DNA of 64,000 nucleotides from Rhizophagus irregularis (GCF_026210795.1 NC_089432.1:1054001-1118000), one strand, 5' to 3'. Positions 6,183 to 63,916 are shown, counted from the stretch's first letter. Program-made: numbers and translations. Notes: a model not told the origin generated them from the letters alone.

Positions 6183-8285
6183 TTATATATAAATCATTCT
6201 CTCCGAAAATTCTTTAAGTTTATCTTGTGCATCTTGATCTCCTTGTTCAGCAGATTTTTTGTACCAAGAAATTGCTTGATTCATATCTTTTTGAATCCCC
6301 ATTCCATTTTCATACATCAAAGCAAGATTATATTGAGCATAACTACTTCCTAAATTTGCTGCTTTTTGATATGATTCAAATGCCATTTGCATATTAACAT
6401 CAGTTCCAATTCCATTTTCATAAAAATAACCTAATTTATTTATTCCCATTGCGTCTCCTCTCTCTGCTAACATTTTAGAGAATTCAAATGCTTTGTTAAG
6501 ATCTTTGTCAACGCCCTCTCCATTTTCATATAAAACAAGAAGATTATATTGAGCTATAACGTTCCCTAAATTTGCTGCTTTTTGGAATAACTCAAACGCC
6601 TTTTGTTTATTAACATCAGTTCCAATTCCCAAACTATAACAATACCCTAACATACTTATTCCACTTGGATATCTTTTTCCCGCTAATTTCTCGAATAACT
6701 TAAAAGCTTTAGTATAATTTTTATGAGTATCTTCTCTATACATATTGGCAAGATCAAATTGAGCTACGATATTTTCTGACTTTGCTGCTTCTTGATATAA
6801 ATCAAACGCCTTTTGTTTATCGCAATCAATTCCAATTCCGTTATAATATAAATACCCAAGCAAATAATTTGAATTCGAAGTATCTTGATTATATAAAAGC
6901 CAATTATAGATCTCATTAGAACTTATGTTGAGATTTTTAATAAAATCAAGAACATGTTTCTTTCTTATTTTTCCTTCTTTTTCTTCGTTTAACTCCTTAG
7001 AAATAAAATCAACCAAATTATCAACGCTTTTATTATAATAAGAATTGAGTTTTTGTCTGGTTTCTTTTATCGATTCTAATTTAACGACTACTTGATTCAT
7101 AAATGGCCTTTTATCTGGATTATCATTCCAACATTCTATATAAAATATAAATAAATTTATTATATTAATGAACATCAATTACGTTAAAATTAGATATTAA
7201 AATCACAAATTGTACTTACCGATATAAAGATTCGAATAATCAAGAGGAGTATCTGGAACGATATTTTCTCTATAACCATTTACAATTCTCATAATTAAGC
7301 TAGCATCATATAATTCATTTTTAAATGGTGGTTGACCGCTCGATATCTCCCATAGAAGCACTCCAACACTGTAAACATCACATTTTTCATTTGGTTTCAT
7401 GTGATTATCATTACTGATGAACTTTTTTGGATCGATATAAGGCGCGATACCAAATAAGTCTGCTCGTTGTTTTTTGGTTGCCTCCTTGATTCTTTTTGAT
7501 AAACCAAAGTCGGCTAATTTAACAGTACCTTGATGAACTAAAACATTTCCGGAATGCTATTATAGAATATAAAAACAATATATAATTAAGTCTTAAATTA
7601 TCAAAATCAAATAATTTAATGAATTTATAAATTACCAAGTTACAATGTACAATTCCTTTCTCATGTAAGCAAGATACAGCATTGGCTAACTGGTAAGCTA
7701 GCTTGTATTTATGTTCTAGAGTAAGATTTTTAAAGTTTTCTTTTAAATAATTTCGAAGAGGACTATCAGCATACTCCATTACTAATAAATATTTCTTTAA
7801 ATGATCGGGTTGACATTCTAATTAAGAGAAATAATTATAATTAACTTAAATTATTAAAAAATCAATGAAATATATATTTAAATATATTCTATACCTTTTT
7901 CTGTAATCCCACATAAACGAATAACATTGTTATTTAAGTCCTTTTCACGTTGTAGTTCAAGCTAATATAACGTTATATAAATGTAAATATCGTAGTCCGA
8001 GATATAAAATTAATATTATTATTAAAAGTTTTTAATTACCTCATGAATAATTTCTTTTACAGTATCGTTATCAAGGTTAAAAAAAGATTTTAACGCAAAG
8101 TATTGATCCGAGTTTTTTTTTTCTGCACGATAAATTTTTCCGAAGGCCCCATTTCCAATTTTTTGAATATTATGAAAATGTTTGTAATCGTAACATTCTA
8201 AATTTTTTTTAGAAATAGCATCTTCAATTAAACCAATCCATTCATTTGAATTTTTGACAGCTTGAATTTCAATTTTATTAGACAT
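6183..8285 (-). CDS. TKL-type protein kinase fused to Sel1-like repeats, probable pseudokinase
   Basis: Five exons on the minus strand, 8040-8285, 7895-7961, 7636-7817, 7220-7556 and 6183-7135, join in frame across GT-AG introns into a 594-aa protein. The start is the MSNK Met at 8285. An upstream in-frame Met at 8333 adds only a Phe-rich stretch read from the 5' leader. The kinase domain has a Gly-rich loop IGNGAFGKIY (about 42-52), Lys66 in FALK and DFG at 181-183. The catalytic HRD reads His-Cys-Asn (162-164), so the catalytic Asp is replaced. After CWNDNPDKRP the protein continues through a helical linker (ELNEEKEGKIRKKHV, EIYNWLLYNQ) into about six SLRs of roughly 36 aa (LGYCYSLGIGTDVNKQKAFE type). 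That same linker starts the stand-alone SLR genes nearby. In this family kinases signal and SLRs act as adaptor scaffolds. Catalytic loss is inferred from the motif. Confidence 0.85.
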
Positions 8286-9747: not shown

Positions 9748-10650
9748 TTATTTCCCTGAAAGTAAATTAAACTTACTTTGTGCATAATTGTATCCTTGTT
9801 CAGCAGACTTTTTATACCAATAAATTGCTTGATCTATATCTTTTATAATTCCATTTCCATTTTCATACATTGAAGCTAAATTATATTGAGCTATATAATT
9901 ATTCAAATTTGCACCTTTTTGATATAACTCAAAACCCTTTTGTTTATTAACATCAGTTCCAATTCCATTATAATGACAATAACCAGTATTATTTATTCCA
10001 GTTGAATTTCCTAATTCTGCTGCTTTTTGATAAAATTCAAATGCTTTTTGCCAATCAGCATAAGTTCCAATTCCTTTTTCATAACAATATCCTAACTTGT
10101 TTATAGCATTCGGAATTCCTTTTTCTGCTAATTTATTTGATAATTCAAAAGCTTTATTATGATTTGTTTTAATACCATTTCCATGAATATATATTTCAGT
10201 TAGATCTAATTGTGCCACACAATTATTATTATTCATTTCCATCGCTTTTTGATATAATTCAAATGCTTTTTGCATATTAATATTTGTTTCAATTCCATTA
10301 TAATTAAAATATCCAAGTAAATAAATAGAATTTGATGATTCATTTTGATTATTTAAAAGATAATTATAAATTTCTTGTGAGATTATTCCTTGATTAATAA
10401 TAAAGTTAATAACATGTTTCTTTATTACTTCTTTATATACTCCCTCATTTAATTTTTTAAAAATCATATCAATTAATTCATCTATTATCATATTTAAATT
10501 TCCATCAAAAATATTTTTATTGATATTTTTAATTGTAGGTTCTATTTCTTTTGTACTATCTATTTTATTGAAATTTTGAATAATTTGAGAATATTCATTT
10601 GATAAATTATTGATATTCAAAAGGTTATTATTAATTTGATTATCAAACAT
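9748..10650 (-). CDS. Sel1-like repeat protein (300 aa)
   Basis: This is a single-exon gene. The N-terminal part (about 1-110) is the helical domain shared by all SLR paralogues here (SQIIQNF, IIDELIDMIFKKLNEG, ISQEIYNYLLNNQ). Five SLRs follow, from IYLLGYFNYNGIETN to YWYKKSAEQGYNYAQ. SLRs are TPR-like helical hairpins that usually scaffold signalling complexes; the partner is unknown. There is no signal peptide and no catalytic domain. The C-terminus SKFNLLSGK departs from the LKELxxx ending of its paralogues, and the DNA there reads CAAAGTAAGTTT, a perfect splice-donor look-alike, so a short alternative last exon cannot be excluded. The conserved upstream element lies at 10723-10750. Confidence 0.85.
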   Translation of the reverse strand: MFDNQINNNLLNINNLSNEYSQIIQNFNKIDSTKEIEPTIKNINKNIFDGNLNMIIDELIDMIFKKLNEGVYKEVIKKHVINFIINQGIISQEIYNYLLNNQNESSNSIYLLGYFNYNGIETNINMQKAFELYQKAMEMNNNNCVAQLDLTEIYIHGNGIKTNHNKAFELSNKLAEKGIPNAINKLGYCYEKGIGTYADWQKAFEFYQKAAELGNSTGINNTGYCHYNGIGTDVNKQKGFELYQKGANLNNYIAQYNLASMYENGNGIIKDIDQAIYWYKKSAEQGYNYAQSKFNLLSGK

Positions 10651-11991
10651 TTGTAAAAGATAAAGTGTAAGAAAGAAACTAAAATAACGTTAAAATATAT
10701 AAATTTTTTTTTTTGTTTTACTTTGGTGGTACTGTAGGTGCAGTTGCACAAAATCTTTTAAATCATTCTTAGTTGTATCTGCGGCTTTATTGATAGTCCC
10801 GTGTAACATCATCGGCCAATCTCGGAAAAAGGCTAATTTTTGAATGAAATTTTTAATGATTCCATTTTTAGCAGGTTATGCCATATTACGGTGTCCCGGT
10901 CCGATGATCTTTCCGAGTCCAGTCGAATATTTTTATTATACGCTAGTAACGCTACACAGAAAAATAATAATAAAACTCATGCAAATAATGTTATTTGTTT
11001 GTATCGTGTTAAGATATACAAAAAAAAATTAAATAATTACTCATACTCGTACGAAGGAAATCACATGATGTGACATAATCTAGTTTGTTATCAGTATGTA
11101 AATATTTACTTTTATTGCTTTTTCTTTAGATCTACTCCCTGTTTATGTGTTTGTGGATTTGTGAATCTATCTCTTATCATAGAATCAAATTAATAAACAG
11201 TACTAATATAATTCTTTTATTTATAGAATCTCCTATGTTGTCCTTAGAATTTCTTTATCATTGTAGTAAGTCGCATATTTCGATTAATAATTAATATTGT
11301 ATTCCTAAAATTTTCTATTGAAAAATGAATTGTTTATTTGTATTATAAATTTTCATATTTGGATTAGATATTTAAGGTTTGAATCTTGTAACTCATTCAA
11401 TTAATGATTTCTTAATAAAATTATCCAAAAGTCAATACGAGATCCATTAATCATGAGATTCTTTCATTTGTAGATATTTTATTTTATGTACAAGAAAATA
11501 CAAGAAAATATATTATGAAGAAAATAGAATAAAATAATAGCTATTCAAAAGTTCAACGGTTAAATGCTACCTATGGGATGTATCTTGGAATAATTGTTGA
11601 ATACCTTGAATGCTTGAGACGACTTAGATGTCAGCGTTTCACCCAGGAAATTTGTATTTGTAATTGCCTGTCTGGGCAAACACATTTTCTTTCAGGAGTG
11701 TAACGATTATAGAACTATTACTGCATGAGGTCTCATGTTGTCAACGAATGGCATTATCATTTCGAATTTGTCATACAGACCACTACTGAAAACCTTACAC
11801 TAGGATATATGTTACTCATAGAGAAAGCAGCAATTTCATTTGCTTGATCTATTTCTTATTATGTCCTGTCATGGATGTTTTAACTGGTCGCTAAAGATGG
11901 ACACTAGTATCTGTTACTGGTATACAACGGACTTTTTGAAGAAAAGGCAGTGTCAATGGGGGACGTTGTAAGAATCGGTTAATTTCAGGAT
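10651..11991. other. Promoter region of the SLR gene plus intergenic DNA
   Basis: Apart from the promoter element at 10723-10750, this stretch has no supportable gene. The overlapping frames at 10840-11073 have no family features. Around 10800-10930 there are GC-richer words (CATCGGCC, CGGTCCGATGATC) that suggest a degenerate repeat. Confidence 0.45.
10723..10750 (-). promoter_or_regulatory. SLR-family upstream element (diverged copy)
   Basis: On the coding strand it reads TGCACCTACAGTACCACCA, a diverged version of the CTGCAGTAYCACCA element found before the paralogous SLR genes. It lies about 75-100 bp upstream of the ATG at 10650. The position and similarity suggest a shared core-promoter site. 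No binding protein is known to me. Confidence 0.45.
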
Positions 11992-19125: not shown

Positions 19126-20013
19126 TTATGCTGTAAGTTCCTTTAATTTATTTTGAGCATATTGGTATCCTTGTTTTGCAGATTTATTATACCAATAAAT
19201 TGCTTGATTTATATTTTTTCCTATACCATTTCCATATTCATACATTAAAGCAAGATTACATTGAGCCAAATAATTGTCTAAATTTGCTGCCTTTTGATAT
19301 AATTCAAACGCTTTATAATCATTAATATCAATCCCAATTCCATTATAATAACAATTACCTAAGTTATTCATTCCATTCGCATTTCCTAAATCTGCTGCTT
19401 TTTGGAATAATTCAAATGCCCTTTGCCAATTAGTAACAGTTCCAATTCCCATTTCATAACAATATCCTAACTTATCTATCGCATTTGGAATTTCTTTGTC
19501 TGCTAATTCTTCATACAATTCAAAAGCTAAATCATTATTTATATCAACACCTTCTCCATGAATATACATTTCAGCAAGATTTAATTGAGCTACGCTATTT
19601 TCTAATATTGTTGCTTCATGATATAATTCAATTACCTTTTGCTTATTAATAATAGTTCCAATTCCATAATAATTAAAATATCCAAGTAAACAAATTGAAT
19701 TTGAATTATATTGATTATTTAAAAGCCAATTATAAATTTCTGGTGTTAATATCTTGTGATTATTAATATAATTTATTATATTATTTTTTAGTATTTCTTC
19801 ATCTTTCCCTTCATTTAGTCCTTTAAAAATAAGATTGATCATTTCATCAATTATGATACTTAAGTCTTCTTCAAATATATTTTCATGAATATTTTGAGTT
19901 ATAGGTTCTATTTCATTTATATTAATTTTATCAAAATTTTGAATAATTTGAGAAAATCCTTTTAATGAATTATTGGTATTTGATGAATCAATATTATCTA
20001 AATTTAGTTGCAT
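19126..20013 (-). CDS. Sel1-like repeat protein (295 aa)
   Basis: A single exon with the paralogue architecture: a short Asn/Ser-rich start, the shared helical domain (FSQIIQNFDKININEIEPI, IIDEMINLIFKGLNEG, LTPEIYNWLLNNQ), then five SLRs from ICLLGYFNYYGIGTIINKQ to YWYNKSAKQGYQYAQNKLKE. The conserved LGxCYxxGIGTxxxxxKAFELYQKAA core is clear in repeats 3 and 4. Predicted soluble adaptor, partner unknown. It is intact, with no frameshift. A conserved upstream element lies 95-115 bp before the ATG. Confidence 0.88.
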   Translation of the reverse strand: MQLNLDNIDSSNTNNSLKGFSQIIQNFDKININEIEPITQNIHENIFEEDLSIIIDEMINLIFKGLNEGKDEEILKNNIINYINNHKILTPEIYNWLLNNQYNSNSICLLGYFNYYGIGTIINKQKVIELYHEATILENSVAQLNLAEMYIHGEGVDINNDLAFELYEELADKEIPNAIDKLGYCYEMGIGTVTNWQRAFELFQKAADLGNANGMNNLGNCYYNGIGIDINDYKAFELYQKAANLDNYLAQCNLALMYEYGNGIGKNINQAIYWYNKSAKQGYQYAQNKLKELTA

Positions 20014-21781
20014 ATTGGATATTATAAATTAATTTAAATAACAAGGGAAAGGAGAAGGCAATAATTTTTGTGTAATTATTTTTGCAGCACATTTATTTAT
20101 ATGTGTGGTGGTACTGCATTGTAAATCACTAGAACTATTGTAATTTTACTGATATTCAGTTGTGTAATGTTAATCAATAATACTCGGGATTGAACTCAAT
20201 TTTATTTTATTTCCATTATTGGAGTATATCCAAATTTAGAAGGTTATCGAATTTATTTTACCTTTATATGTTATATAATATGCATCAATTAATTAGTGAG
20301 AAATTATGATAATAATAAAAGATGAATTTGTAATAAATGTATTTTTAATAAATGTAAATACTTATTTTAACGTATTATATGTATTTGATATTTATAATTC
20401 GAATATCATTGTGATAGCTCCCCTTTAAACGCTCTTTAAACATATTTGTGATTTTACAAAAAAAAAAAAGTTCGTCGCTAAACATTGCATATTTTATCAT
20501 TCCTATCATTTGAGCATCTATTTGTAATTTTACTTCTCGTAATCTTACAAAATTTCTTTTGATTTGTGTAAAGAATTCCTAAGATCCGCTCGCCTAAAAA
20601 AAAAGTGAAAAATCGAAACGTTAGCTAGTAAGGCATTTCGTTAAAGGAAATGCAATCAAATACCTACCGAAATCCTTACATCCAAGATGCGGTCTCTAAA
20701 AAAAAAAGTGAAAAATCGAAATGTTAGTAAGTTCTTTATAATTTTTGCATGTGTTTCAGACTCATTTATTTACCCGGACAACATGGTCTTGTTAAATTGG
20801 GAATAAGGAACTTTTTAAATAAATATTATGAAACGTCCTTAATAATATTGTTTATATCATGAACCAAAAAAGCTCATGAATCCTAAAATATGATTAAGCG
20901 CTTTTATATCCTCATTATATTTGCCAATATGTAAGCAATTTATATTTCAATTATTTCTGTAATTGAAATTAATAAATTACTGTGCATAGCGATCGTCGTG
21001 TAGATGATATTAAGTATTCCTTTGCGAAAAATTAAGGCGGGAGCAGAAAACTGTTATCAATGTCAACATTCTAATAACACGATACATTCCATACACAAAA
21101 TGGTCTTGTTTGGATTAAATTCTGCTCACCTAATAAGATATCGTCTTTTCTTTTTACAATATTTAAGAATATCCAATATGTAAAACCAATTATATTACTA
21201 AAATAAATTTTCGTTTTATGTGAAAAAAATACACATTTAAATGCTACCACATATTTCAAAGGACATGTGATATTCTTTGAATATGAATGGAACGAAGATA
21301 TTCCATCGTTAATCTATATCCAAATACAATAGACGTACATGTAAAATATATGATAATTCATGTAATTAATTCTTTATTTAATAAATACTATAAAGTAAAT
21401 TTTCATAGTATTAACTGGAATTTTAATCATTGATATCATTAATCCTTAATATTTTTAATTTGATCAAAATTATATACATGCTCAAACTCTTAACAGAAAA
21501 TTAACAAACTAAATTCAAATAACAAATATATCACTTCATTTTGGACCTAAATTTTTATTGTAATATCATATCTTACATGTATACGTGCAAAAAAAAAATA
21601 AAAAATAAGTCACAATATTTGATATATTGAATAGCTATAAAAATGAAGTTAAAAAATTTAAAATAATGACGTATAAGTTATTTACATCATAAATATGGAA
21701 CAACTTGTTTCACATATTTAATAGTAGTAAAAACAATTGATAAAAAATAATAAGAAAAATAAAATAAGAATAATAAATAAT
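20014..21781. other. Promoter region and intergenic DNA with a repeated motif
   Basis: The SLR promoter element is at 20106-20128. Two imperfect copies of AAAGTGAAAAATCGAAACGTTAG occur near 20600 and 20705, each after a poly-A run, and resemble units of the array at 54080-54660. The frame 21071-21259 (-) has no support. The rest is AT-rich without features. Confidence 0.5.
20106..20128 (-). promoter_or_regulatory. SLR-family upstream element
   Basis: The coding strand reads GATTTACAATGCAGTACCAC, about 95-115 bp before the ATG at 20013. It matches the GATC(N)CACTGCAGTAYCACCA consensus shared with the neighbouring SLR genes except for changes in the PstI-like core. Confidence 0.6.
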
Positions 21782-22744
21782 TTACTTCTTTGTAAGCTCC
21801 ATTAATTTATTATCAGCATAGAAGTATCCTTGTTCAGAAGACTTATTGTACCAATAAATTGCCTGGTCTAGGTCTCCTTTAGTTTCATACATTTTAGCAA
21901 GATTGTATTGAGAATATTTATATCCCATATTTGCTGCTATACAATATAATTCAAAAGCCTTCTGACTATTAACATTAGTTCCACTTCCCATCTCATAACA
22001 CCATCCTAAGTTATTTATTCCATCTAAACTTCCCAAATCTGCTGCCTTCTGATACAATTCAAATGCTTTTAGCTTATTAACATTAGTTCCAATTCCTTTA
22101 TCATAACATAATCCTAAATTACTTATTCCATCTGAACTTCCTAAATCAGCCGCTTTTTGATATAATTCAAATGCTTTTTCTCCATTTGCGTCAACTCCAA
22201 TCCCATGTTCATAACACCACCCTAAGTTATTTATTGCGTTCGGAATTCCCTTTTCTGCTAATTTATTTGATAATTTAAAAGCTTCATTATAGTTTTTAAA
22301 AGCAGATTTTCCATAAATATATATGTTAACAAGATGTAATTGAGCGACATTATTTTCTAGTTCTGCTGCTTTTTGAAATAATTCTAATGCTCTTTGTTTA
22401 TTAACACCAACTTCAATTCCATGATAATTAAAATATCCAAGTAAACAAATAGAATTTGAATTATGCTGATTGTTTAAAAGCCAATTATAAATTTTTTGCA
22501 TATTTATTTTTTGATTGTAAATATAATTTAGTACATGAAACTTCAATAATTCTTCGTCGTCATTTAATTCATTAAAAATAAAATTAATCAATTCATCAGT
22601 TATAATATTTAAATCTCCTTCAAAAATATTTGTAGGTTCTACTTCTTTTATATTGATTTTATCAAAATTCTGAACAATATCATTTAATAAATTATTGGTA
22701 TTTAAGGAACTAATATTATCCGAGTTAAGTTGCTTATCACACAT
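21782..22744 (-). CDS. Sel1-like repeat protein (320 aa)
   Basis: Start chosen at MCDKQLNSDN (22744). The open frame extends upstream to 22870, but that part contains the conserved promoter element (22824-22848) and encodes a Cys/Leu-rich leader absent from paralogues, so it is 5' leader. The shared helical domain (IITDELINFIFNELNDDEE, MQKIYNWLLNNQ) is followed by six SLRs. Repeats 3 to 5 (INNLGWCYEHGIGVDANG, ISNLGLCYDKGIGTNVN, INNLGWCYEMGSGTNVN) are close copies, suggesting recent internal repeat duplication. Repeat 6 is shortened (AKMYETKGDLDQAIYWYNKS). Intact. Predicted scaffold or adaptor; partner unknown. Confidence 0.88.
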   Translation of the reverse strand: MCDKQLNSDNISSLNTNNLLNDIVQNFDKINIKEVEPTNIFEGDLNIITDELINFIFNELNDDEELLKFHVLNYIYNQKINMQKIYNWLLNNQHNSNSICLLGYFNYHGIEVGVNKQRALELFQKAAELENNVAQLHLVNIYIYGKSAFKNYNEAFKLSNKLAEKGIPNAINNLGWCYEHGIGVDANGEKAFELYQKAADLGSSDGISNLGLCYDKGIGTNVNKLKAFELYQKAADLGSLDGINNLGWCYEMGSGTNVNSQKAFELYCIAANMGYKYSQYNLAKMYETKGDLDQAIYWYNKSSEQGYFYADNKLMELTKK

Positions 22745-22823
22745 TGTAAATTGATTTAATAAATGTAACGAACAACAAGGGAAAAGAAGCAAATAAATAA
22801 CTTGTGTAGTAAAACAACGTTTT

Positions 22824-22848
22824 ATGGTAATACTGCAGTGCAGATCAG
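22824..22848 (-). promoter_or_regulatory. SLR-family upstream element
   Basis: The coding strand reads GATCTGCACTGCAGTATTAC followed by CATA, 80-105 bp before the ATG at 22744. It is one of the best matches to the family element, and its place inside the longer open frame argues that translation starts downstream of it. Confidence 0.7.
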
Positions 22849-22919
22849 TTTTGTGCACCTGCAGTTTCATTGTATGATTGCTAATTTAAAATTAGTAATG
22901 CGCCAAGAACTGGGAGTTC

Positions 22920-24715: not shown

Positions 24716-25591
24716 TTATTCTTCTAAAAGCTCATTTAATTTATCTTGCGCAGATTGGTTTCCTTGTTCAGCAGATTTTTTGTACCAATAAATTGCTTGA
24801 TCAATATCTACATTAATTCCATCTCCATCTTTATACATTTTAGCAATACAGTATTGAGCAAAATCATTTTCAAAGTTTGCTGCCATGAGATACAATTCAA
24901 ATGCTTTTTGTTTGTCAACATAAGTTCCAATTCCCTCAGAATAACACCAACCAAAGTTAATTATTCCATTGATATTTCCTAAATCTGCCGCTTTTTGATA
25001 TAAATCAAATGCTTTTTGGTCATAAGCATCAGTTCCAATTCCATTTTCATAACACCATCCTAAGTTATTCAGTCCACCTGCATATTCTTTTTTTGCTAAA
25101 TTCTTAGATAAGTTGAAAGCTAAATCATCATCACTTTCTGTTACATGGATATATATTTCAGTAAGGTCCAATTGAGCCACTATATTTTGTAATTTTGCCG
25201 CTTTTTGATATAATTTAATTGCCCTTTGTTTATTTAGTTTGGTCTCGATTCCATTATAATTAAAATAACCAAGTAAATAAATAGAATTTGAATTATTTTG
25301 ATTATTTAAAAGGTAATTATAAATTTCTTGAATTATCACCTTATTATTAATATGATTTAAAACACATTGTTTTATAGTTTTTCTACATTTTCCTTCATTT
25401 AATTTATTAAAAATAAGTTCAACTAATTTAACAATCACATTATTTAAATCTCCTTCAAAAATACCTTCGTTGATATTTTCTGTTGCAGGCTCTATTTCGA
25501 TTATGTTAATTTTATCAAAATTCTTAATAATTTGAGAAAACTCATGTAATGAATTATTATTTGAGTTAAGATTAATCGAATTATCTGACAT
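24716..25591 (-). CDS. Sel1-like repeat protein (291 aa)
   Basis: A single exon starting MSDNSINLNS. The shared helical domain (FSQIIKNFDKINIIEIEP, VIVKLVELIFNKLNEG, IIQEIYNYLLNNQ) precedes five SLRs from IYLLGYFNYNGIETKLNK to YWYKKSAEQGNQSAQDKLNE. Repeat 2 is degenerate (IYIHVTESDDDLAFNLSKNL), a feature shared with the 26067 paralogue. The two proteins share the ending DKLNELLEE and the downstream DNA (CTTAATTTTTTT and poly-A), so they look like a recent tandem pair. Intact. Predicted adaptor, partner unknown. Confidence 0.88.
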   Translation of the reverse strand: MSDNSINLNSNNNSLHEFSQIIKNFDKINIIEIEPATENINEGIFEGDLNNVIVKLVELIFNKLNEGKCRKTIKQCVLNHINNKVIIQEIYNYLLNNQNNSNSIYLLGYFNYNGIETKLNKQRAIKLYQKAAKLQNIVAQLDLTEIYIHVTESDDDLAFNLSKNLAKKEYAGGLNNLGWCYENGIGTDAYDQKAFDLYQKAADLGNINGIINFGWCYSEGIGTYVDKQKAFELYLMAANFENDFAQYCIAKMYKDGDGINVDIDQAIYWYKKSAEQGNQSAQDKLNELLEE

Positions 25592-25673
25592 TATAAAGTA
25601 ATCTAATAATAAGAAGGAAAGAGGAAAAAAAGTAAATATGATTGTTTTTTTTTAGCAAGTTATATTTAAGTAT

Positions 25674-26066: not shown

Positions 26067-27038
26067 TTACTCTTCTAAAAGTTCATTTAATTTATCTTGA
26101 GCGGGTAGGTATCCATGTTCAGCAGATTTTTTGTACCAATAACTTGCTTGATCCATATCTTTTTTAGTTCCATAACCATTTTCATACATTTTAGCAATAT
26201 TATATTGGGCACAATCATTTTCCAAATTTGCTGCCATTAAATATAATTCAAATGCCTTTTGTTCATTAACATTAGTTCCAACTCCATTGTGATAACAATT
26301 TCCTAAACTAGATATTCCATGTGTGTTTCCTAAATATGCTGCTATTTGAAATAATTCAAATGCTTCTTGTACATTAATATAAGTTCCAATCCCATAATTA
26401 TAACACCAACCTAAATTATTTATTCCATTTGAATTTCCCAAATCTGCCGCTTTTTGATATAGTTCAAATGCTTTTTCTTCATTTGCGTCAACTCCAATCC
26501 CATGTTCATAACACCACCCTAAGTTATTTAATCCACCTGGATATCCTTTATCCGCTAATTTTTTAGATAATTTAAAAGCTAAACCATCATTATTCTCAGC
26601 ATCTGCTACACAGATAATTATTTCAGAAAGATTTAATTGAGCTACTTTATTTTCTAACTCTGATGCTTTTTTATACAGTTCAATTGCCTTTTGAATGTTA
26701 AAAACAGTTCCAATTCCATGATAATTAAAATATCCGAGTAAATAAATAGAATTTGAATTATTTTGACTATTTAAAAGGTAATTATAAAATTCTTGTGAAA
26801 TTATCTTGTTTTTAGTAATATGCTCTAAAACATATTGTTTTATAATTCTTTCATTTTCTCCTTCATTATGATTATTGAAAATAAGAATAATTAATTCTTC
26901 AACCACAATATTCAAATCTCCTTCAAAAATATCTTTTTTGATATTTCCTGTTGTAGGCTCTATTTCTTCTATATTTACTTTATCAAAATTTTTAATAATT
27001 TGAGAAAACTCATGTAACGAATTATTGATATCAAACAT
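26067..27038 (-). CDS. Sel1-like repeat protein (323 aa)
   Basis: A single exon starting MFDINNSLHEFSQIIKNFDK. The shared helical domain (IVVEELIILIFNNHNEG, ISQEFYNYLLNSQ) is followed by six SLRs. Repeat 2 is weak (EIIICVADAENNDGLAF). Repeats 3 to 5 are canonical (LNNLGWCYEHGIGVDANE and similar). Repeat 3 is nearly identical to repeat 3 of the 21782 gene (LGWCYEHGIGVDAN), which suggests exchange between paralogues. It ends DKLNELLEE like the 24716 protein. Intact. Predicted adaptor, partner unknown. Confidence 0.88.
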   Translation of the reverse strand: MFDINNSLHEFSQIIKNFDKVNIEEIEPTTGNIKKDIFEGDLNIVVEELIILIFNNHNEGENERIIKQYVLEHITKNKIISQEFYNYLLNSQNNSNSIYLLGYFNYHGIGTVFNIQKAIELYKKASELENKVAQLNLSEIIICVADAENNDGLAFKLSKKLADKGYPGGLNNLGWCYEHGIGVDANEEKAFELYQKAADLGNSNGINNLGWCYNYGIGTYINVQEAFELFQIAAYLGNTHGISSLGNCYHNGVGTNVNEQKAFELYLMAANLENDCAQYNIAKMYENGYGTKKDMDQASYWYKKSAEHGYLPAQDKLNELLEE

Positions 27039-27126
27039 TGTAAAGTAATATAATTATAAGGAGAGAGAAGAAAGAAATTAAATAAAGTGTACCTTTTTTT
27101 TCACAACTTTATTTATAATGAAGTGT

Positions 27127-31966: not shown

Positions 31967-33007
31967 GTAACTAATTTTATTATTTGAAATTAGTAAATAT
32001 TTTAATTTTGCTAATATATACATTTTATTTTAGATTACATCACATTGTAAAGTAAATTTGGGTAGGTGCATTGTTAAACTTTATGGAATAACTCAAGATC
32101 CAGAAACAGAAAATTATGCTATGGTTTTAGATTTTGCAGAGGATGGAGATTTACGAAATTATTTAAATAAAAATCATAACAAATTATATCTTAACGATAA
32201 AATTAATTATTTACATAGCATTACACGAGGGCTTGCAGATATTCATAAAAACGAATTAATTCATCGAGATTTACATATTGGTAATATACTAAGGTTCAAA
32301 GATCTCACTTGTATAACTGACATGGGATTATGTAAACCTGCAGATTATAATCCATCAGAAAATACAAAAAATAGTACATATGGTATTTTACCTTATATTG
32401 CTCCTGAAATATTACGAGGACAAAATTATACCAAAGCCTCAGATATTTATAGTTTTGGTATTATTATGTATGAAGTAATTTCTGAATTACCTCCATATCA
32501 TGATGTAAATCATGATTATAATTTAGCAATAAGAATTTGTAAAGGACTTAGACCAAGGTTTAATATCAAAGTACCACAATTAATTGTCCATTTAATTAAA
32601 AGATGCTTAAGATTTTTTTGATTTCTTCTGCTTCTGGTCAACTTAACGGATTTGAATCTAAGTCAATGGTCTAAAGAATTATTTACTACGTTGAAAAATC
32701 ATCATGTAGCTGATAATTATGCAGAAATACAGAAACAAATTAGAGAAGCAGAAAATATCAATAAGAATTTGGCGGTCAGTAGTGCACCTTCAACCAACTT
32801 AGGATTATTGATCGTATAAAACACGTTCAGAAGACATTTATACCAGTAGATTGCTTAATTTTAATAATCTTCCTGAACCAAAAAATTCTGTCGATTATTA
32901 TGATAATCAAAATGATGATATAATTAGCATGGAATCTTCAGGTATCAACTAATTTTATTAAATCAACATAAAATTAATTATTAATAATATTTTAAATTAT
33001 TAAATAG

Positions 33008-36332: not shown

Positions 36333-36400
36333 TAAATATATAGATGCTGAACAAAACAATAAATATGATATTTCTTTCTTTCTCTTTAAATTAATCCACA

Positions 36401-37285
36401 ATGTCTAATAAACAGATTTATTCAGATAATTCAGATAACAATAACTTTTCAAATACTCAAATTACAAATAATTTTGTTAAAATAAATATAAGGGAAGTGG
36501 AGCCCACAATCAAAAATATTAATGATGATTTAAATATTATAATTGATGAGTTAGTTAATCTTATTTTTAAAGAAATAAATGAAGGAAGACGTGTTATTAA
36601 AATAAGGCAACACGTCATTGACAATATTGATAGTTACAATATATTTTTAAAAAAAGTTTATGTTGACCTTTTAAATAACCAAAATAATTCAAATTTTATT
36701 TATTTGCTTGGATATTTTAATTTTTATGGAATTGGAACTGATTTAAATCAGGAAAAAGGATTTAAATTATATCAAAAAGCTGCAGAATTACAAAATAGAG
36801 CGGCTCAATTAAATCTCATTAGGGAATATTTTCATGAAAACATTTGTTTAGATCCCAAATTAGCTTTGAACTATGTGAAAAATTAGCAAAAGAAGAATAT
36901 GCAGATGGATTGTATGATTTAGGTTATTGTTATGAAGTAGGAGTTGGAACTAATGTTGATAAATAAAAAGCATTTGAATCATATCAAAAGGCGGCAAATT
37001 TAGGAAATATTAACGGAATAAATAACTTTATTGGTGTTATAAAAATGGATTTGGAACTAATGTTAATGAACTAAAAGCATATGAATTATATCGAAAAGCC
37101 AAGAAAATACAATTGCAATATTTAGCTTAATAGATTGTTATTAGTATAAAGGAATTGGAACTAATATTAATAAAGAGAAGGGATTTGAATTAAATTAAAA
37201 AGCAGTAAAATGGAAGTGAAGTTAAAAAAGATATTAATAATGCAATTTATTGGTACAAAAAATCTGCTAAACAAAGAAATAAATA
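36401..37285 (+). pseudogene. Sel1-like repeat protein pseudogene
   Basis: The first 161 codons are open (MSNKQIYSDNSD, then IIIDELVNLIFKEINEG, VYVDLLNNQNNSNFIYLLGY, first SLR FYGIGTDLNQEKGFKLYQKA). A frameshift after LDPKLALNYVKN shifts the rest: LCEKLAKEEYADGLYDLGYC and YEVGVGTNVDK continue in another frame, then a TAA stop, KAFESYQKAANLGNINGINN, more shifts, and a final NAIYWYKKSAKQ-like end near 37270. An earlier full-length gene of about 300 aa is implied. Confidence 0.85.
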
Positions 37286-39901: not shown

Positions 39902-42900
39902 ATGTTTTTCAAAAAAAAACCTTTAGAGATACATAACATTCTGGAATATTTAAAAAATAATTTTACAAATTGGACCAGTAGAAATGAAAAAATTGATAAC
40001 TTCATTCAGGAAATGCAATTGAACATCAATAATGAAAATGATGTAGTATTTGAATGGATACCATATAAACAATTTAATAAAATCAAAGAGATAGGCAAAA
40101 ATGATTCTATAACAGTGTATTCATCAATATGGAAGGATGGTCCATTATGTAAAATGAATATGTTGAGTGGGTATTATGCAAGGGATCCAAATATAAATGT
40201 CGCCTTAAAATATTTACATAACTCACAAGATTCTGTTGATTTTCTAATAAATGAGGTATACCATTTTAATAAATATTCTTAATACTTTAAGTATAATAAA
40301 TTTACTCATTTGTTTATATTTAGGCTAAAAAATATTCAAGAAAGATCTTTGATAGAGCAATTTGTGACATATATGGAATATCTCAAAATCCAAAAACAAA
40401 TAACTATATTTTAGTTCTTGCATGGGCGAGTGGAAGCGAAAAAATTGATAACTTCATTCAGGAAAAGCAATTGAACATCAATAATGAAAATGATGTGGTA
40501 TTTGAATGGATACCATATAAACAATTTAATAAAATCAAAGAGATAGGCAAAAATGATTCTATAACAGTGTATTCATCAATATGGAAGGATGGTCCATTAT
40601 GTAAAATGAATATGTTGAGTGGGTATTATGCAAGGGATCCAAATATAAATGTCGCCTTAAAATATTTACATAACTCACAAGATTCTGTTGATTTTCTAAT
40701 AAATGAGGTATAACATTTTAATAAATATTCTTAATACTTTAAGTATAATAAATTTACTCATTTGTTTATATTTAGGCTAAAAAATATTCAACAAAGATCT
40801 TTGATAGAGTAATTTGTGACATATATGGAATATCTCAAAATCCAAAAACAAATAACTATATTTTAGTTCTTGCATGGGCGAGTGGAAGTGAAAAAATTGA
40901 TAAATTCATTCAAGAAATGCGATTAAAAATTAAATGGATACCATATAATCAGCTTCATTACATTAAAGAGGCAGACAAAAATGACCTTATAACATTGTAT
41001 TCAGCAATATGGAAAGCTGGCCCATTATATAAGAGATATGGTTTGAGTAATTATACAAGAAATCCATGTAAAGAAGTTGCCTTAAAATGTTTACATAATT
41101 CACAAGAATCCATTGATTCTTTAATAAATAAGGTATGAATTTCTTTAAAGATTTAAATACTTTTTTTATTTATTATATTAACAATAGTTTTTACTTATAT
41201 TTAGGCTAAAAAGTATCTAACAATACATAATGCATTTCAAGTATTGTATGGAATATCTCAAAATCCAGATACAGGAGATTATATTTTAATTCTTAACCAG
41301 ACGAGTGGAAATGTAAAAATTGATGATTTCATTCAAGAAAAGCAATTAGAAATAAATGACTATGATGATATAGTGTTTGAATGGGTTCCATACAATCAGT
41401 TTAATAAAATTGAAAAGACAGGCAAAAATGGCCCTGTAACAGCATATTCAGCAATATGGAAAGATGATTTACTACATTATCAGTATTATGGATATACAAG
41501 ACATTCAAATAACAAAATTGCTTTAAAATGTTTTCATAATTCACAAAAATCCATTGATTCTTTAATAAATGAGGTATGAAATTCTTTAATTATTTAAATG
41601 TTTATTTTAATATATTTACAATCTCTTTTATTTATATTCAGGCAAATAAATATCAAACAAAGCATAAAGCATTTCAAGTATTATATGGAATATCTCAAAA
41701 TCCATTTACAGGAGATTATATTTTAATTCTTAACTTGATGAGTGGAAATGAAAAAATTGATGATTTCATTCTGGAAAGGCAATTGAAAATTAGTAACTAT
41801 GATGATATTGTGCTTGAATGGATACCATATAATCAGTTTAATGAAATTAAAGAAACAGGCAAAAATAACCTTATAAAAGTATATTCAGCAACATGGAAAG
41901 ATGGTCCATTATACAAGAAGAATAGACAGAGTAATTATACAAGAAATTCAAATAAAGAAGTTGCTTTAAAATGTTTACATAATTCACAAGTATTCATTGA
42001 TTCTTTAATAAATAAGGTAAGGAATTTCTTTAAATATTTAAATACTTTTTTTAATTAACATATTCTAATATTTATATTAGGCTAAAAAATATCCAACAAA
42101 ATATAAAGCATTTCAAGTATTGTATGGGATATCTCAAAATCCAGATACAGGAAATTACATTTTTGTTATTAACTGGACAAGTGGAAATGAAAAAATTGAT
42201 GATTTCATTCAAGAAAGGCAGTTAGAAGTTAATGATTATTATGATATAGTGCTTGAATGGATACCATACAATCAATTTAATGAAATTAAAAAGACAGGCA
42301 AAAATGACCTTATAACAGTATATTCAGCAATATGGAATAATGGTCCAATATACAAATTGTTTGATAATGATAATTATAAAAGAGATTCAAATATAAAAGT
42401 TGTTTTAAAATGTTCACATAATTTACAAGTTTCTATTGATTCTTTAATATATGAGGTATGAAATTTCTTCAAATATTTAATAAATACTTATTTTAATTAA
42501 TATATTTACCTTTTATTTATATTTAGGCTAAAAAATATTCAATAAAACATGAAGCATTTCAAGTATTATATGGAATAACTCAAGATCCATATACAAGAAA
42601 TTATATTTTTGTTCAAAATAATTCTATAAACTTAACAAATTGGATCAGTGGAAATGAAAAAATTGACGATTTCATTCAAGAAATGCAATTGAAAATTAGT
42701 AACTATGATGATATTGTGCTTGAATGGATACCATACAATCAGTTTAATGAAATTAAAGAAACAAACAAAAATAACCTTATAACAGTATATTTAGCAATAT
42801 GGAAGGATGGTCCATTATACAAGAAGAATAGACAGAGTAATTATACAAGAAATTCAAATAAAGAAGTTGCTTTAAAATATTTACATAATTCACAAATATT

Positions 42901-44771
42901 CATTGATTCTTTAATAAATAAGGTATGAAATTTCTTTAAATCCTATTTAAATACTTTTTTTAATTAACATATTCTAATATTTATATTAGGCTAAAAAATA
43001 TCCAATAAAACATAAAGCATTTCAAGTATTGTATGGGATATCTCAAAATCCAGATACAGGAGATTATATTTTTGTTCTTAACTGGACAAGTGGAAATGAA
43101 AAAATTGATGATTTCATTCAAGAAAGGCAGTTAGAAGTTAATGATTATAATGATATAGTACTTGAATGGATACCATACAATCAATTTAATGAAATTAAAA
43201 AGACAGGCAAAAATAACCAAATAACAGTATATTCAGCAATATGGACAAATGGTCCATTATACAAATTGCTTGATGATTATGATTATAAAAGAAATTTAAA
43301 TATAGAAGTTGTTTTAAAATGTTTACATAATTCACAAGAATCTATTGATTCATTAATAAATGAGGTATAATTTTCTTTAAATGTTTATGTATTTTTTCAA
43401 TTAATATTTACAATCTCCTTTATTTATATTTAGGCTAAAAAATACCCAACAAAACATAAAGCATTTCAAGCATTGTATGGAATATCTCAAAATCCAGATA
43501 CAGAAGATTATATTTTAGTTCTTATGTGGACAAGTGGAAATGACAAAATTGATTATTTCATTCAAGAAATGCAATTAAAAATAAATGAACATGGCTATGA
43601 TGATATAATACTTGAATGGATACCATACAGTCAGTTTAATAATATTAAGGAAATAGGTAAAGGTGGTTTTTCTACAGTATATTCAGCAGAATGGAAGAAT
43701 GGTCCATTAGAATATAATGTGGATAAAGAAATCTACAAAAGGAATTCAAATAAAGTAATTGCTTTGAAATGTTTGCATAATTCCCAAATTATTACTGATA
43801 AATTTTTAAATGAGGTATGAAACTTTTTTAAAAGAATCACTATAATAGAATAATCTTTTATTTAAGCACAATGTAATTACTTATTTTTTGATATCAATGT
43901 ATTTTAATAGGTTAAAGAGTACTCAATAAGTAAAAGCAGTAATATTCTTAATATATATGGAATATCTCAAAATCCAGATACAAAAGAATATATTATGGTT
44001 CTCCAATATGCAAAAGAAGGCAATTTTAATCATTGGATAAGTAGAAACTATGAATATTTCAATTGGAAGGACAAAATATCTGTATTACTTAATATTGTTA
44101 ATGGTCTTAAGGAAATACATCAAAGAAATTTAGTTCATCGTGATTTTCATACAGGAAATATATTAATTTTAAATTACATAAGTTATTTTAGTAACTGTGT
44201 ATTAATTTCAGATATGGGATTATGTGGAGAAGTAGATGAAACTAAAATTTATGGAGTTATGCCTTATATGGCTCCTGAAGTATTAAGAGGAAAGCTTTAT
44301 ACTCAAGCAGCAGATATTTATAGTTTCGGTATGATAATGTACTTTGTAGCAACTGGAAAACAACCTTTTGGCGATCATGCACATGATCATCTTCTTGCAT
44401 TAGATATTTGCAAAGGAATTAGACCTGAAATAAGTGAGCCAGAAGCACCAAAATATTATATTGATTTAATGAAAAAGTGTTGGGATTTAGATAAAAATAA
44501 TAGACCAGATATTTTTGAGATAAATAAATTAATCACATCATTTTATGAGTTATATGTGGAGAATTTTGTTACTGTAGAAAATGAAGAAATTGTAATACAA
44601 TTTAAGGAGGCAGAAGAATATAGAAAAGCAAATCTTACTTCCATTGAAAATTACCAAACAGCTACCCATTCACAAGCTATTTATACATCTCGATTACTTA
44701 ATCCTATTACAAAAGATCTTCCAAAAAATGATGATGATTATAATTCTCAATGTTTAGATCAAGTAATCTGA
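39902..44771 (+). CDS. TKL-type protein kinase with nine tandem N-lobe modules (1408 aa)
   Basis: Ten exons join in phase 0 with GT-AG introns: 39902-40255, 40324-40707, 40776-41132, 41205-41573, 41642-42016, 42081-42455, 42527-42922, 42990-43364, 43434-43814 and 43911-44771. All lengths are multiples of three and no stop interrupts. Exons 2-9 each read YGISQNPDTGDYILVL (beta4-beta5), WTSGNEKIDDFIQE (linker helix), LEWIPYNQFNEIK, a loop segment, VYSAIWK, VALKCLHNSQ (beta3) and SIDSLINE (alphaC). In exons 1-8 the Gly-rich loop is replaced by TGKNDLITVY-like sequence. Exon 9 alone has IGKGGFSTVYSAEW. Exon 10 completes a kinase with HRDFHTGNIL, SDMGLCGE and MAPEVLRG, then RPDIFEINKLI and an acidic tail ending QCLDQVI. 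Start: MFFKKKP at 39902; an in-frame Met at 39824 is the alternative. Activity is inferred to reside in exons 9-10. A set of partial genes is the alternative reading. Confidence 0.78.
39965..43814 (+). repeat. Tandem array of kinase N-lobe exon-intron units
   Basis: Nine units of about 415-470 bp each consist of a 354-396-bp exon and an intron of about 64-96 bp. The intron after exon 1 and that after exon 2 are nearly identical (GTATAACATTTTAATAAATA, TACTCATTTGTTTATATTTAG). Exons 1 and 2 encode the same protein over about 80 residues at a 452-bp offset, the freshest duplication. Exons 6 and 8, and exons 5 and 7, are also close pairs, which suggests a later two-unit duplication. The unit breakpoint lies between ILVL (from a C-lobe-type exon) and NWTSGN (from an N-lobe-type exon). 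Confidence 0.9.
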
Positions 44772-51031: not shown

Positions 51032-51296
51032 TACATAAAGTTATATAAGATTAATTTGAGAGTTTTTTACCAAAAAGGAAATTTTTTTATAAAAAAAGAA
51101 ATGATTTTCAATTTCGAGGCAATTCAGCAGGTGTTTTAATAACAAATTGAGAAATGATTTCCATAGAAAATCTCGTGACAAAATTTATAATAAATTTAAA
51201 AATAAATGATCAACAAATGATCAACAAAATTGTTACTAGTTTTATAAAAAACGCCCAATAATATCTTTTTATTGTTTTAAAATATAAAAAACATAT

Positions 51297-52556
51297 GCTC
51301 AGATTAGTGATTTGTTTGATATACCTCATGTCGAATTTTATTCTACTATTGATAAATGGCCTTCTGCATATAGAGGAGAATTGTTAGCTGTTCTTTTAGC
51401 ATTAAGCGTTGTTCCAAAAAATAGTAAAGTTAGAATTAACACAGACTCGCTTAACGTGATTACTCAATTTGAAAAATTGAAGAAGTCAAGATTTTCTCAA
51501 ACCTCACGTGAATACTTTAAGGCTAATAATAATTTCTTATGGGCTATTTTATGTAGAATCATATTAACATTGAACTTGCATGTGGAAATGTTTAAGGTTG
51601 TTGCTCATGGTGATGATATGGGTAATAATTATGTAGATAATTTGGCGAAAATTGCACATACTGATCAAGATCGCTATATAGTTTTACGACAGAACGCTTG
51701 TATGATGAAAGTTCTTCCTTGTTGGAATGGAATTATTATTGAAAATAAGCTGCGCTCATTTTTGAAAAATATATGCAACTACAAAGGTTTAGAAAAATTT
51801 ATTAATTTGAATAGAAATTCTAAATATCGCACGCTAGAAGTCAACTGGACATCCACATTTAGTTGTTTAAATTGTGACATAAATAACAATGAAACTTCTG
51901 TTTCTTCTTCTAAAACGAAAGCTCAAAAAGTTCACTTGTTAATTGAAGAAATTCCTACAATTGAACAGATGAAGAAATCATTGTTTGACTTATATGATGG
52001 TTGGATGTGCCCTATATGTGGTCTACAAGACGAAACCTTTAATCATGTCTGGACGTGTAGTGGTCATTATGATATTATTAACAACATTCGAGATAAGACT
52101 ATTAATCATCTCTTAACTTGGATATTAGAATATAATGATAATATACAAGATTTTAATGCTCTTATGGCACTTGATATATGGGATATATCTTATGATCCTA
52201 ACATGTTTACTTTTATTGACTTGATTAAAGGTATTATACCTATGTCGCTTTCAGAATTATTGAATTCCTGGACTACAAAGAAAAATGTTGTTGATGTTTT
52301 GGTTCAAATGAGACAGTTTATTTTTAATGCTATATTCGAAGAAGTTTGGATTCCAAGGTGTTCGCATTTGAAGGAATTTGAACATTCTATAGGATTAACT
52401 AAAAAGAAAAAATTAGAATTCAAAAGCGTTCGTTCATTACCTAGTAATAATAGTAGTTATACTAATAATATTCATTATGATTCTTTAGATAGTGTTAGGA
52501 ATTACATTTATTTTGGTAAAAATATAATAGAATTTTATACTAATCTTACTTCGTAG
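51297..52556 (+). pseudogene. C-terminal part of LINE ORF2: RNase H and zinc-knuckle-like domains
   Basis: Open frame from the truncation point; the codon at 51312 is TTG, so there is no real start. The RNase H-like core shows AYRGELLAVLLAL (Glu), VRINTDSLNVI (Asp) and FKVVAHGDDMGNNYVDNLAK (His and the final Asp). The first beta strand with its Asp is lost with the missing 5' part. Further on, CPICGLQDETFNHVWTCSGH is a Cys/His cluster of the kind seen after RNase H in these elements. The sequence ends IIEFYTNLTS then stop. The frame has no internal stops over about 420 codons, so the insertion is young. No endonuclease or reverse transcriptase remains. Confidence 0.85.
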
Positions 52557-62846: not shown

Positions 62847-62935
62847 ACAAAACAGTATTACTAATATAAATACGTTTGTGAAAAAAAAAAAAAAAATTTA
62901 AACTCTATTTTTTTTCTTGTTTAAATTATTCTAAA

Positions 62936-63916
62936 ATGTCTAATAAGCAAGTTAATTTCAAAACTAAAAATTTATTATATGAATTTTCTCAAATTATTCA
63001 AAATTTTGATAAAATTAATATAAAAGAAACTGAACCTATTATAAATGATTATATTTTTGAAGGAGATTTAAGTATCATGATTGATGATTTGGTTGATCTT
63101 ATTTTTATGAAATTAAATGAAGGGAAAGACGCAATAATAATAAAGCAACATGTTTTTAACTATCTTAATAATCACAAAATTATTTTACAAGAAATTCATA
63201 GTTGGCTTTCAAACAACCAAAATAATTCAAATTCTAATTATTTGTTTGGATATGTTAATTATCATGGAATTGGAACTAATTCTGACAGGAAAAAGGCAAT
63301 TGAATTATATAAAAAAGCAGCAGAGTTAGAAAATAATGTAGCTCAATTAGATCTTATTCATATATATATTCATGGAAAAGATAATGAGATAAATTATAAT
63401 TTAGCATTTAAGTTATCTAAAAAATTAGCAGAAAAAGAAATTCCAAGTGCAATATATAGTCTAGGCTATTGTTATTTCAGGGGAATTGGTACTGTTTATG
63501 ATACAAAAAAAGCATTTGAATTATATCAAAAGGCAGCAGATTTAGGAAATTCAAATGGAATAAACAACTTAGGTTGGTGTTATTATGGTGGAATTGTAAT
63601 TAAGTCTGATGATCAAAAAGCATTTGAATTGTTTCAGAAAGCAGCAGATTTAGAAAATTTAAGTGGAATAAATGGTTTAGGATGTTGCTATGAAAAAGGA
63701 GTTGGGACTGATATTAATAAACAAAAAGCATTTGAATTATATAAAAAAGCAGCAGAGTTGGGAAGTAATTCAGCTCAATATAATCTTGCTAAGATGTATG
63801 AAATTGGAAGTGGAGTTGAAAAGGATATGGATCAAGCAGTATATTGGTACCAAAAATCTGCTGAGCAGGGATACAAATATGCTCAAATAAAAGTAAATCA
63901 ACTTTTAAAAAAATAA
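62936..63916 (+). CDS. Sel1-like repeat protein (326 aa)
   Basis: An intact single-exon paralogue starting MSNKQVNFKTKNLLYEFSQI. The shared helical domain (MIDDLVDLIFMKLNEGKD, ILQEIHSWLSNNQ) is followed by six SLRs. Repeats 3 to 5 carry LGYCYFRGIGT, LGWCYYGGIVI and LGCCYEKGVGT cores with KAFELYQKAADL. The last repeat is AKMYEIGSGVEKDMDQAVYW. It ends IKVNQLLKK. It lies over 34 kb from the main cluster and on the opposite strand, between MITE and transposon ends. Predicted soluble adaptor, partner unknown. Confidence 0.9.
   Translation: MSNKQVNFKTKNLLYEFSQIIQNFDKINIKETEPIINDYIFEGDLSIMIDDLVDLIFMKLNEGKDAIIIKQHVFNYLNNHKIILQEIHSWLSNNQNNSNSNYLFGYVNYHGIGTNSDRKKAIELYKKAAELENNVAQLDLIHIYIHGKDNEINYNLAFKLSKKLAEKEIPSAIYSLGYCYFRGIGTVYDTKKAFELYQKAADLGNSNGINNLGWCYYGGIVIKSDDQKAFELFQKAADLENLSGINGLGCCYEKGVGTDINKQKAFELYKKAAELGSNSAQYNLAKMYEIGSGVEKDMDQAVYWYQKSAEQGYKYAQIKVNQLLKK

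Follow-up and report, generated by a model that had tools for sequence, protein, structure and literature searches.

Strings of degenerate kinase N-lobes precede a single C-lobe in a large gene family of Rhizophagus irregularis

Why would a fungal gene encode nine kinase N-lobes in tandem and then only a single C-lobe? The question is raised by a gene at 39902-44771 in a 64,000-nucleotide stretch of the Rhizophagus irregularis genome (hereafter the window; C4:1054001-1118000 of the genome searched, which comprises 146.7 Mb in 32 contigs). A first, sequence-only reading of the window had reported ten phase-0 exons, each a multiple of three in length, that yield 1408 stop-free codons, and re-splicing bears this out: the spliced translation of the ten plus-strand exons holds one stop, the terminal one, and the introns, all phase 0 and 64-96 nt long, have GT...AG ends and each contain a stop. 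The proposed architecture likewise stands, and it is indeed unusual: eight N-lobes are altered, and a complete kinase follows them. The count of nine N-lobes is also right, although an exon is not itself one N-lobe. Specifically, each exon boundary separates alphaC from beta4: a middle exon encodes the beta4-beta5 that complete one N-lobe and then, from leader helix through alphaC, the first part of the N-lobe after it. The nine N-lobes are thereby spread across ten exons, with the ninth continuous with the C-lobe.

The gene opens with exon 1 (39902..40255, plus strand, as are all the exons), which encodes the start Met, a short N-terminus similar to the first exons of other arrays, a leader helix and beta1-beta2-beta3-alphaC of N-lobe 1, whose Gly loop is degenerate (GKNDSITVY). 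Exon 2 (40324..40707) supplies beta4-beta5 of N-lobe 1 and then the leader-to-alphaC part of the degenerate N-lobe 2. Degenerate junction modules follow in exon 3 (40776..41132; N-lobes 2/3), exon 4 (41205..41573; 3/4), exon 5 (41642..42016; 4/5), exon 6 (42081..42455; 5/6), exon 7 (42527..42922; 6/7) and exon 8 (42990..43364; 7/8). Exon 9 (43434..43814) joins beta4-beta5 of N-lobe 8 to the leader-to-alphaC part of the final N-lobe, where the Gly-rich loop is intact (IGKGGFSTVY) and both the beta3 Lys (ALK) and the alphaC Glu (LNE) are found. Exon 10 (43911..44771) then contributes beta4-beta5 of the final N-lobe, a complete C-lobe (VHRDFHTGNI, ISDMG, APE), a C-terminal tail and the stop. The eight upstream modules had been described as lacking the Gly-rich loop; the loop is indeed degenerate, but beta1-turn-beta2 is present in the variant form GKNxxITVY for GKGGFSTVY. 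Identity among the window modules is 62-84%. Exon 1 matches exon 2 at 97% across 300 nt, intron edge included, and modules 5-6 resemble modules 7-8 (exon 5 versus exon 7, 91% nucleotide identity; exon 6 versus exon 8, 93%), likenesses that point to array growth by recent unit duplications.

At its C-terminal end the protein is conventional. Pfam PF07714 matches residues 1066-1328 of the spliced protein across profile positions 4-256 of 258 (E=2.5e-54), and the Gly-rich loop, beta3 Lys, alphaC Glu, HxD, DxG and APE are all present, which identifies the terminal domain by its sequence as a eukaryotic protein kinase of the PF07714 type that is predicted to be active. This is the single kinase domain that Pfam finds in 1408 aa, and the protein has a single C-lobe rather than two or more complete two-lobed kinases. 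As Pfam detects the terminal kinase only, domain-based annotation is expected to miss the N-lobe array.

Around the kinase gene lies a cluster of Sel1-repeat genes (Pfam PF08238), several with a similar N-terminus, at 6183-7178, 9748-10689, 19126-20028 and 26067-27053 on the minus strand and at 36395-36886 and 62882-63916 on the plus strand; open reading frames at 21782-22885 and 24716-25651 resemble these six genes. A second kinase C-lobe, a fragment with HRD and DMG motifs, is found at 32034-32621 (plus strand; PF07714, E=3.4e-33), and a plus-strand RNase H-domain reading frame at 51288-52556 (PF00075), with a Cys-containing region at its end, is probably a retroelement remnant.

The gene is not a lone oddity: its design is the norm for a large family of kinases encoded in the genome. 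A genome search with a middle exon returned at least 150 copies without an internal stop on many contigs, which excludes chance, and the C-lobe exon retrieved one group at about 70-93% identity, many members of which adjoin module clusters, and a larger second group near 57-68%. Forty loci (L001-L040) were fetched around module or C-lobe matches and scanned with a profile of the window modules; nearly all are module arrays ending in one C-lobe. The array loci number in the dozens, lie on at least 12 contigs and hold divergent, uniquely ordered modules. From the lower-identity C-lobe group, eight kinases (L041-L048) were picked for contig spread before their upstream regions were inspected; in each of the eight, the 3.7 kb retrieved contains three to five N-lobe modules. 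The array design thus appeared in every family gene opened far enough upstream (about 36 of a Cys-less subtype and 8/8 sampled from the second subtype), and at least 44 genes of the Rhizophagus irregularis genome share the architecture of the window gene. HxD, DMG and APE are retained in nearly all family C-lobes. Among arrays for which both the start exon and the C-lobe were fetched, the number of N-lobes per gene ranges from 4 (L027) to 21 (L017 plus L018). Many arrays share a start exon like KTMFSQNIPLTxDNILEYLETNFTNWTSGNEK, and an alternative start exon is common to the window gene, L009, L014 and L026.

Counted by exact motif across the genome, the module leader FEWIxYxQF occurs 569 times, WCKxCQIN 160 times and the upstream-type loop 83 times, and intact Gly loops, whichever kinase they belong to, number 337; 78 of the first 100 listed FEWIxYxQF leaders lie in same-strand clusters, often spaced near 450 or 550 bases. 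The total of array genes is put at well over a hundred, a figure that is an estimate and not a count. Most Cys-less arrays are crowded on contig C16, at about 2.39-3.8 Mb and 4.1-4.7 Mb, and most other array-bearing contigs have one or two each.

The modules also behave as spliced coding exons. In 315/317 full-length exons an AG precedes and a GT follows at the predicted base, 312/315 introns contain an in-frame stop, and retention adds a stop or shifts the frame in 315/315. Intron lengths are spread evenly modulo three (111/108/96), and exon lengths vary by threes only; exons that hold frame while introns drift are the pattern expected of spliced coding sequence. Not every gene is intact, as some arrays contain broken modules. 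Frame breaks were noted in arrays L019, L023, L001, L004, L006 and L040; in L019 and L023 two modules share an identical break, as if a broken module had later been duplicated. Residual nanopore errors may lie behind such breaks.

The second subtype varies the theme. In its units, beta5 and the leader helix are often separated by a CxxC...WCxxC stretch, possibly a zinc-binding element inserted where a C-lobe would follow. The degenerate loops of this subtype are variable and show no fixation on Asn. Three loci (L030, L031 and L032) are mixed, with Cys-less modules, then one Cys-type module and then the final module.

What distinguishes the last N-lobe from those before it follows a rule of position. 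The Gly-rich loop is intact in the N-lobe joined to the C-lobe in 36/36 Cys-less and 8/8 second-subtype genes, and it is lost from 330/331 and 27/27 upstream modules, respectively. The 36 Cys-less finals comprise 34 labelled by script, all with GxGG or DxGG (34/34), and L023_13 and L035_04, which are the last modules of their arrays; the sole upstream exception with GxGG, L026_05, sits in a locus with a broken C-lobe. At position 75 of the Cys-less subtype, where the second Gly is replaced, 94% of upstream modules have Asn and 100% of finals have Gly. Other features of the N-lobe persist upstream: the beta3 Lys is present in 34/34 labelled finals and in 313/333 script-labelled upstream modules (94%; this set includes L023_13 and L035_04), roughly 80% of upstream modules end in Glu at the alphaC position, and Trp, Tyr and Lys positions are conserved. 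Upstream and final modules differ in majority residue at 19 positions, and in a codon tree the finals form a pure clade (31/31, support 0.918). As such, a degenerate kinase-derived region stands beside an intact kinase, and the upstream modules can be described as a lineage separate from the finals, a predicted non-catalytic N-lobe type under constraint.

The two kinds of module also differ in how they evolve. Of 290 upstream modules, 179 have their nearest relative within their own array, versus 9 expected; of 31 finals, none does. In L011, L017/L018 and L023, runs of two or three modules recur as exact or near-exact duplicates. In 20% of modules the left half and the right half share a nearest relative, versus 37 +/- 2% for random halves, a low agreement that indicates mosaics. 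The final module of the window gene is 92% identical to the finals of L014 and L009, whereas its upstream modules reach at most 87% against those loci, so that gene history is kept in the final module while upstream modules turn over. These patterns point to duplication, deletion and conversion of upstream modules within each array. The earlier suggestion that exon number generates diversity therefore holds as an evolutionary change of array length through exon duplication.

Such turnover invites the view that the arrays are a neutral by-product, in which short similar introns drive unequal crossing-over and the extra N-lobes are harmless, mere linker. The frequency of recent duplications, the broken modules and the dN/dS of upstream modules, a moderate 0.57 obtained from 143 disjoint pairs of related, converting sequences (finals, about 0.41-0.45 in most divergence bins), are all compatible with it. 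Neutral growth would nevertheless have to account for hundreds of open frames, for one Asn kept in 94% of modules together with 19 diagnostic positions and conserved Trp, Tyr and Lys, and for a position rule that extends to the second subtype. It survives best among the alternatives, as an unlikely account, and the conservation likewise makes it unlikely that the upstream modules are dead relics.

The most variable stretch of the modules is the beta2-beta3 loop (positions 91-98), with 202 distinct ten-residue strings in 231 modules and an entropy of 2.43 bits upstream versus 1.44 in finals. Its pN of 0.285 and pS of 0.499, versus 0.126 and 0.204 elsewhere, show it to be fast at synonymous and replacement sites alike, and positive selection is for that reason not claimed. 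An apparent excess of pN, scored segment by segment, disappeared once only length-matched loops were set against their own pS. Alignment error, older loops kept via conversion or a mutational hotspot would give the same signal.

We consider that the array of inactive N-lobes may form a variable binding or regulatory region for the one C-terminal kinase, a reading to which we assign a probability of about one half. As the DNA shows, each gene begins with a start exon of similar type, continues with 3 to 20 inactive-type N-lobe modules and closes with a single canonical N-lobe and a single C-lobe. Next to the C-lobe the module is held canonical, and the others are of a distinct sequence type under constraint that would fold, outside catalysis, as a chain of N-lobe-like domains, each presenting a different beta2-beta3 loop. 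Through docking, decoy action or self-inhibition, this chain could serve as a multivalent binding and regulatory region by which the C-terminal kinase is controlled or targeted. Growth and shrinkage of the exon array, together with gene conversion, would permit quick change of valency and specificity, as in repeat-bearing immune-type receptors. A multivalent recognition or docking region that controls one kinase appears to account best for the number of modules, the diversity of loops and the consistently lost Gly loop, ahead of splice choice, pure autoinhibition and neutral growth.

The weakest physical step of this model is the predicted ability of an N-lobe to fold on its own when its C-lobe is missing. 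Predicted from eight window sequences, the structure model of exon 8 was of poor quality (mean pLDDT 50.5, with about 70-75 only over beta1 to alphaC); Foldseek with this model gave no significant fold match, with kinases in many of the top rows, and a PDB profile search with the exon-register alignment gave no meaningful match. Searches of the viral and prokaryotic collections gave no relative and hence no sign of a horizontal origin there.

A regulatory role could also be purely intramolecular, with upstream N-lobes that compete for or pack against the C-lobe, such that array length tunes activity and not recognition. The modules are indeed kin of the true N-lobe, as their mutual identities within the window attest, and keep most core positions. 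This account would leave unexplained why loops differ in nearly every module and why N-lobe numbers run from 4 to 21, and we regard it as somewhat less probable than neutral growth.

Alternatively, the array could offer a choice of splicing, in which alternative upstream exons are joined to exon 10 to give many kinase and pseudokinase isoforms per gene. All exons are phase 0 and share the same structural start and end point, so that joining any of them to exon 10 restores a complete kinase domain; as in Dscam-like exon arrays, the duplicates are of equal phase. Equal choices should, however, leave catalytic residues in upstream exons too, and in essentially every gene the Gly loop is kept by the final exon alone, the one adjoining exon 10. 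Splice choice is accordingly improbable, slightly more so than intramolecular regulation. Expression of exons 9-10 alone also seems unlikely, because the upstream exons are constrained and the introns are about 70 nt long. An assembler may go astray on repeats of about 450 bp, but an assembly artefact, raised at the outset as a possible refutation, is very improbable: the independent loci number in the dozens and spread over at least 12 contigs, their modules are divergent and stand in a unique order, and the matching published assembly reports uniform coverage and a read N50 of 25 kb (PMC10234402), well beyond a 5 kb array. A fusion of separate kinase genes, which would place C-lobes between N-lobes, fares no better.

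The multivalent reading has partial parallels in known systems. In JAK, an inactive kinase-derived region precedes the active kinase domain and regulates it, as an inactive kinase-derived region precedes the kinase here; that of JAK is a full two-lobed pseudokinase, whereas the inactive units of the window family have no C-lobe and are repeated. Fungal NLR receptors carry near-identical repeats under concerted evolution. Quick change of repeat number, repeats closest within a gene and variable positions inside repeats are shared with them (for context, see PMC9815663). Homogenisation and mosaicism within arrays and a hypervariable loop are seen in the kinase family, and dN does not exceed dS; its repeat is a kinase N-lobe rather than a WD40, ankyrin or TPR repeat, and Pfam finds no NACHT or NB-ARC match in the whole 1408-aa protein. 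Several wheat tandem kinase proteins contain one catalytically dead unit that is thought to bait pathogen effectors. These plant proteins resemble the window family in having more than one kinase-derived unit per protein, with two or so kinase domains as opposed to 4-21 N-lobes. Rwt4 of wheat is called a tandem kinase (PMC10027608).

The kinase expansion of Rhizophagus irregularis, to which the PF07714 terminal domain of the window gene belongs, is itself already known (PMC6123716, PMC8647823, PMC10234402). Strain DAOM197198 is credited with 2,533 kinases (PMC10234402) and PF07714 is the top inflated motif (PMC6123716); in passages retrieved by word search, the three papers count kinases as genes or domains and treat them as high-copy genes, some as tandem arrays of whole genes. 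These passages make no mention of N-lobe arrays inside genes, perhaps because Pfam detects the last kinase domain only. Within these sources, the expansion is known and the N-lobe-array design appears not to have been described, and it is on this design that the expansion appears to rest. A survey of pseudokinases by Kwon et al. 2019 (Sci Signal), which PMC10234402 cites beside the kinase expansion, may have flagged inactive kinases in this fungus.

The kinase genes of arbuscular mycorrhizal fungi run to thousands, and there is no agreement on their purpose. Should a large share of them encode N-lobe arrays that end in one catalytic unit, the chief characteristic of the family has escaped domain counts, and a repeat scaffold made of half-kinase modules becomes a concrete structural hypothesis. 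A tentative and rather doubtful extension is a new receptor-like system in which kinases encoded across the genome recognise through strings of retired half-kinases with individual loops, for self, partner or parasite recognition in these fungi. Such a repertoire would probably exceed a hundred genes by a wide margin, and its strings would be rearranged through duplication and conversion of exons. The array design, if it does account for a large share of the kinases, would mean that a kinase N-lobe is able to live as an independent repeat, which bears on how the lobes fold and regulate each other, and would provide a marker of variable copy number for comparing strains with respect to compatibility or host range.
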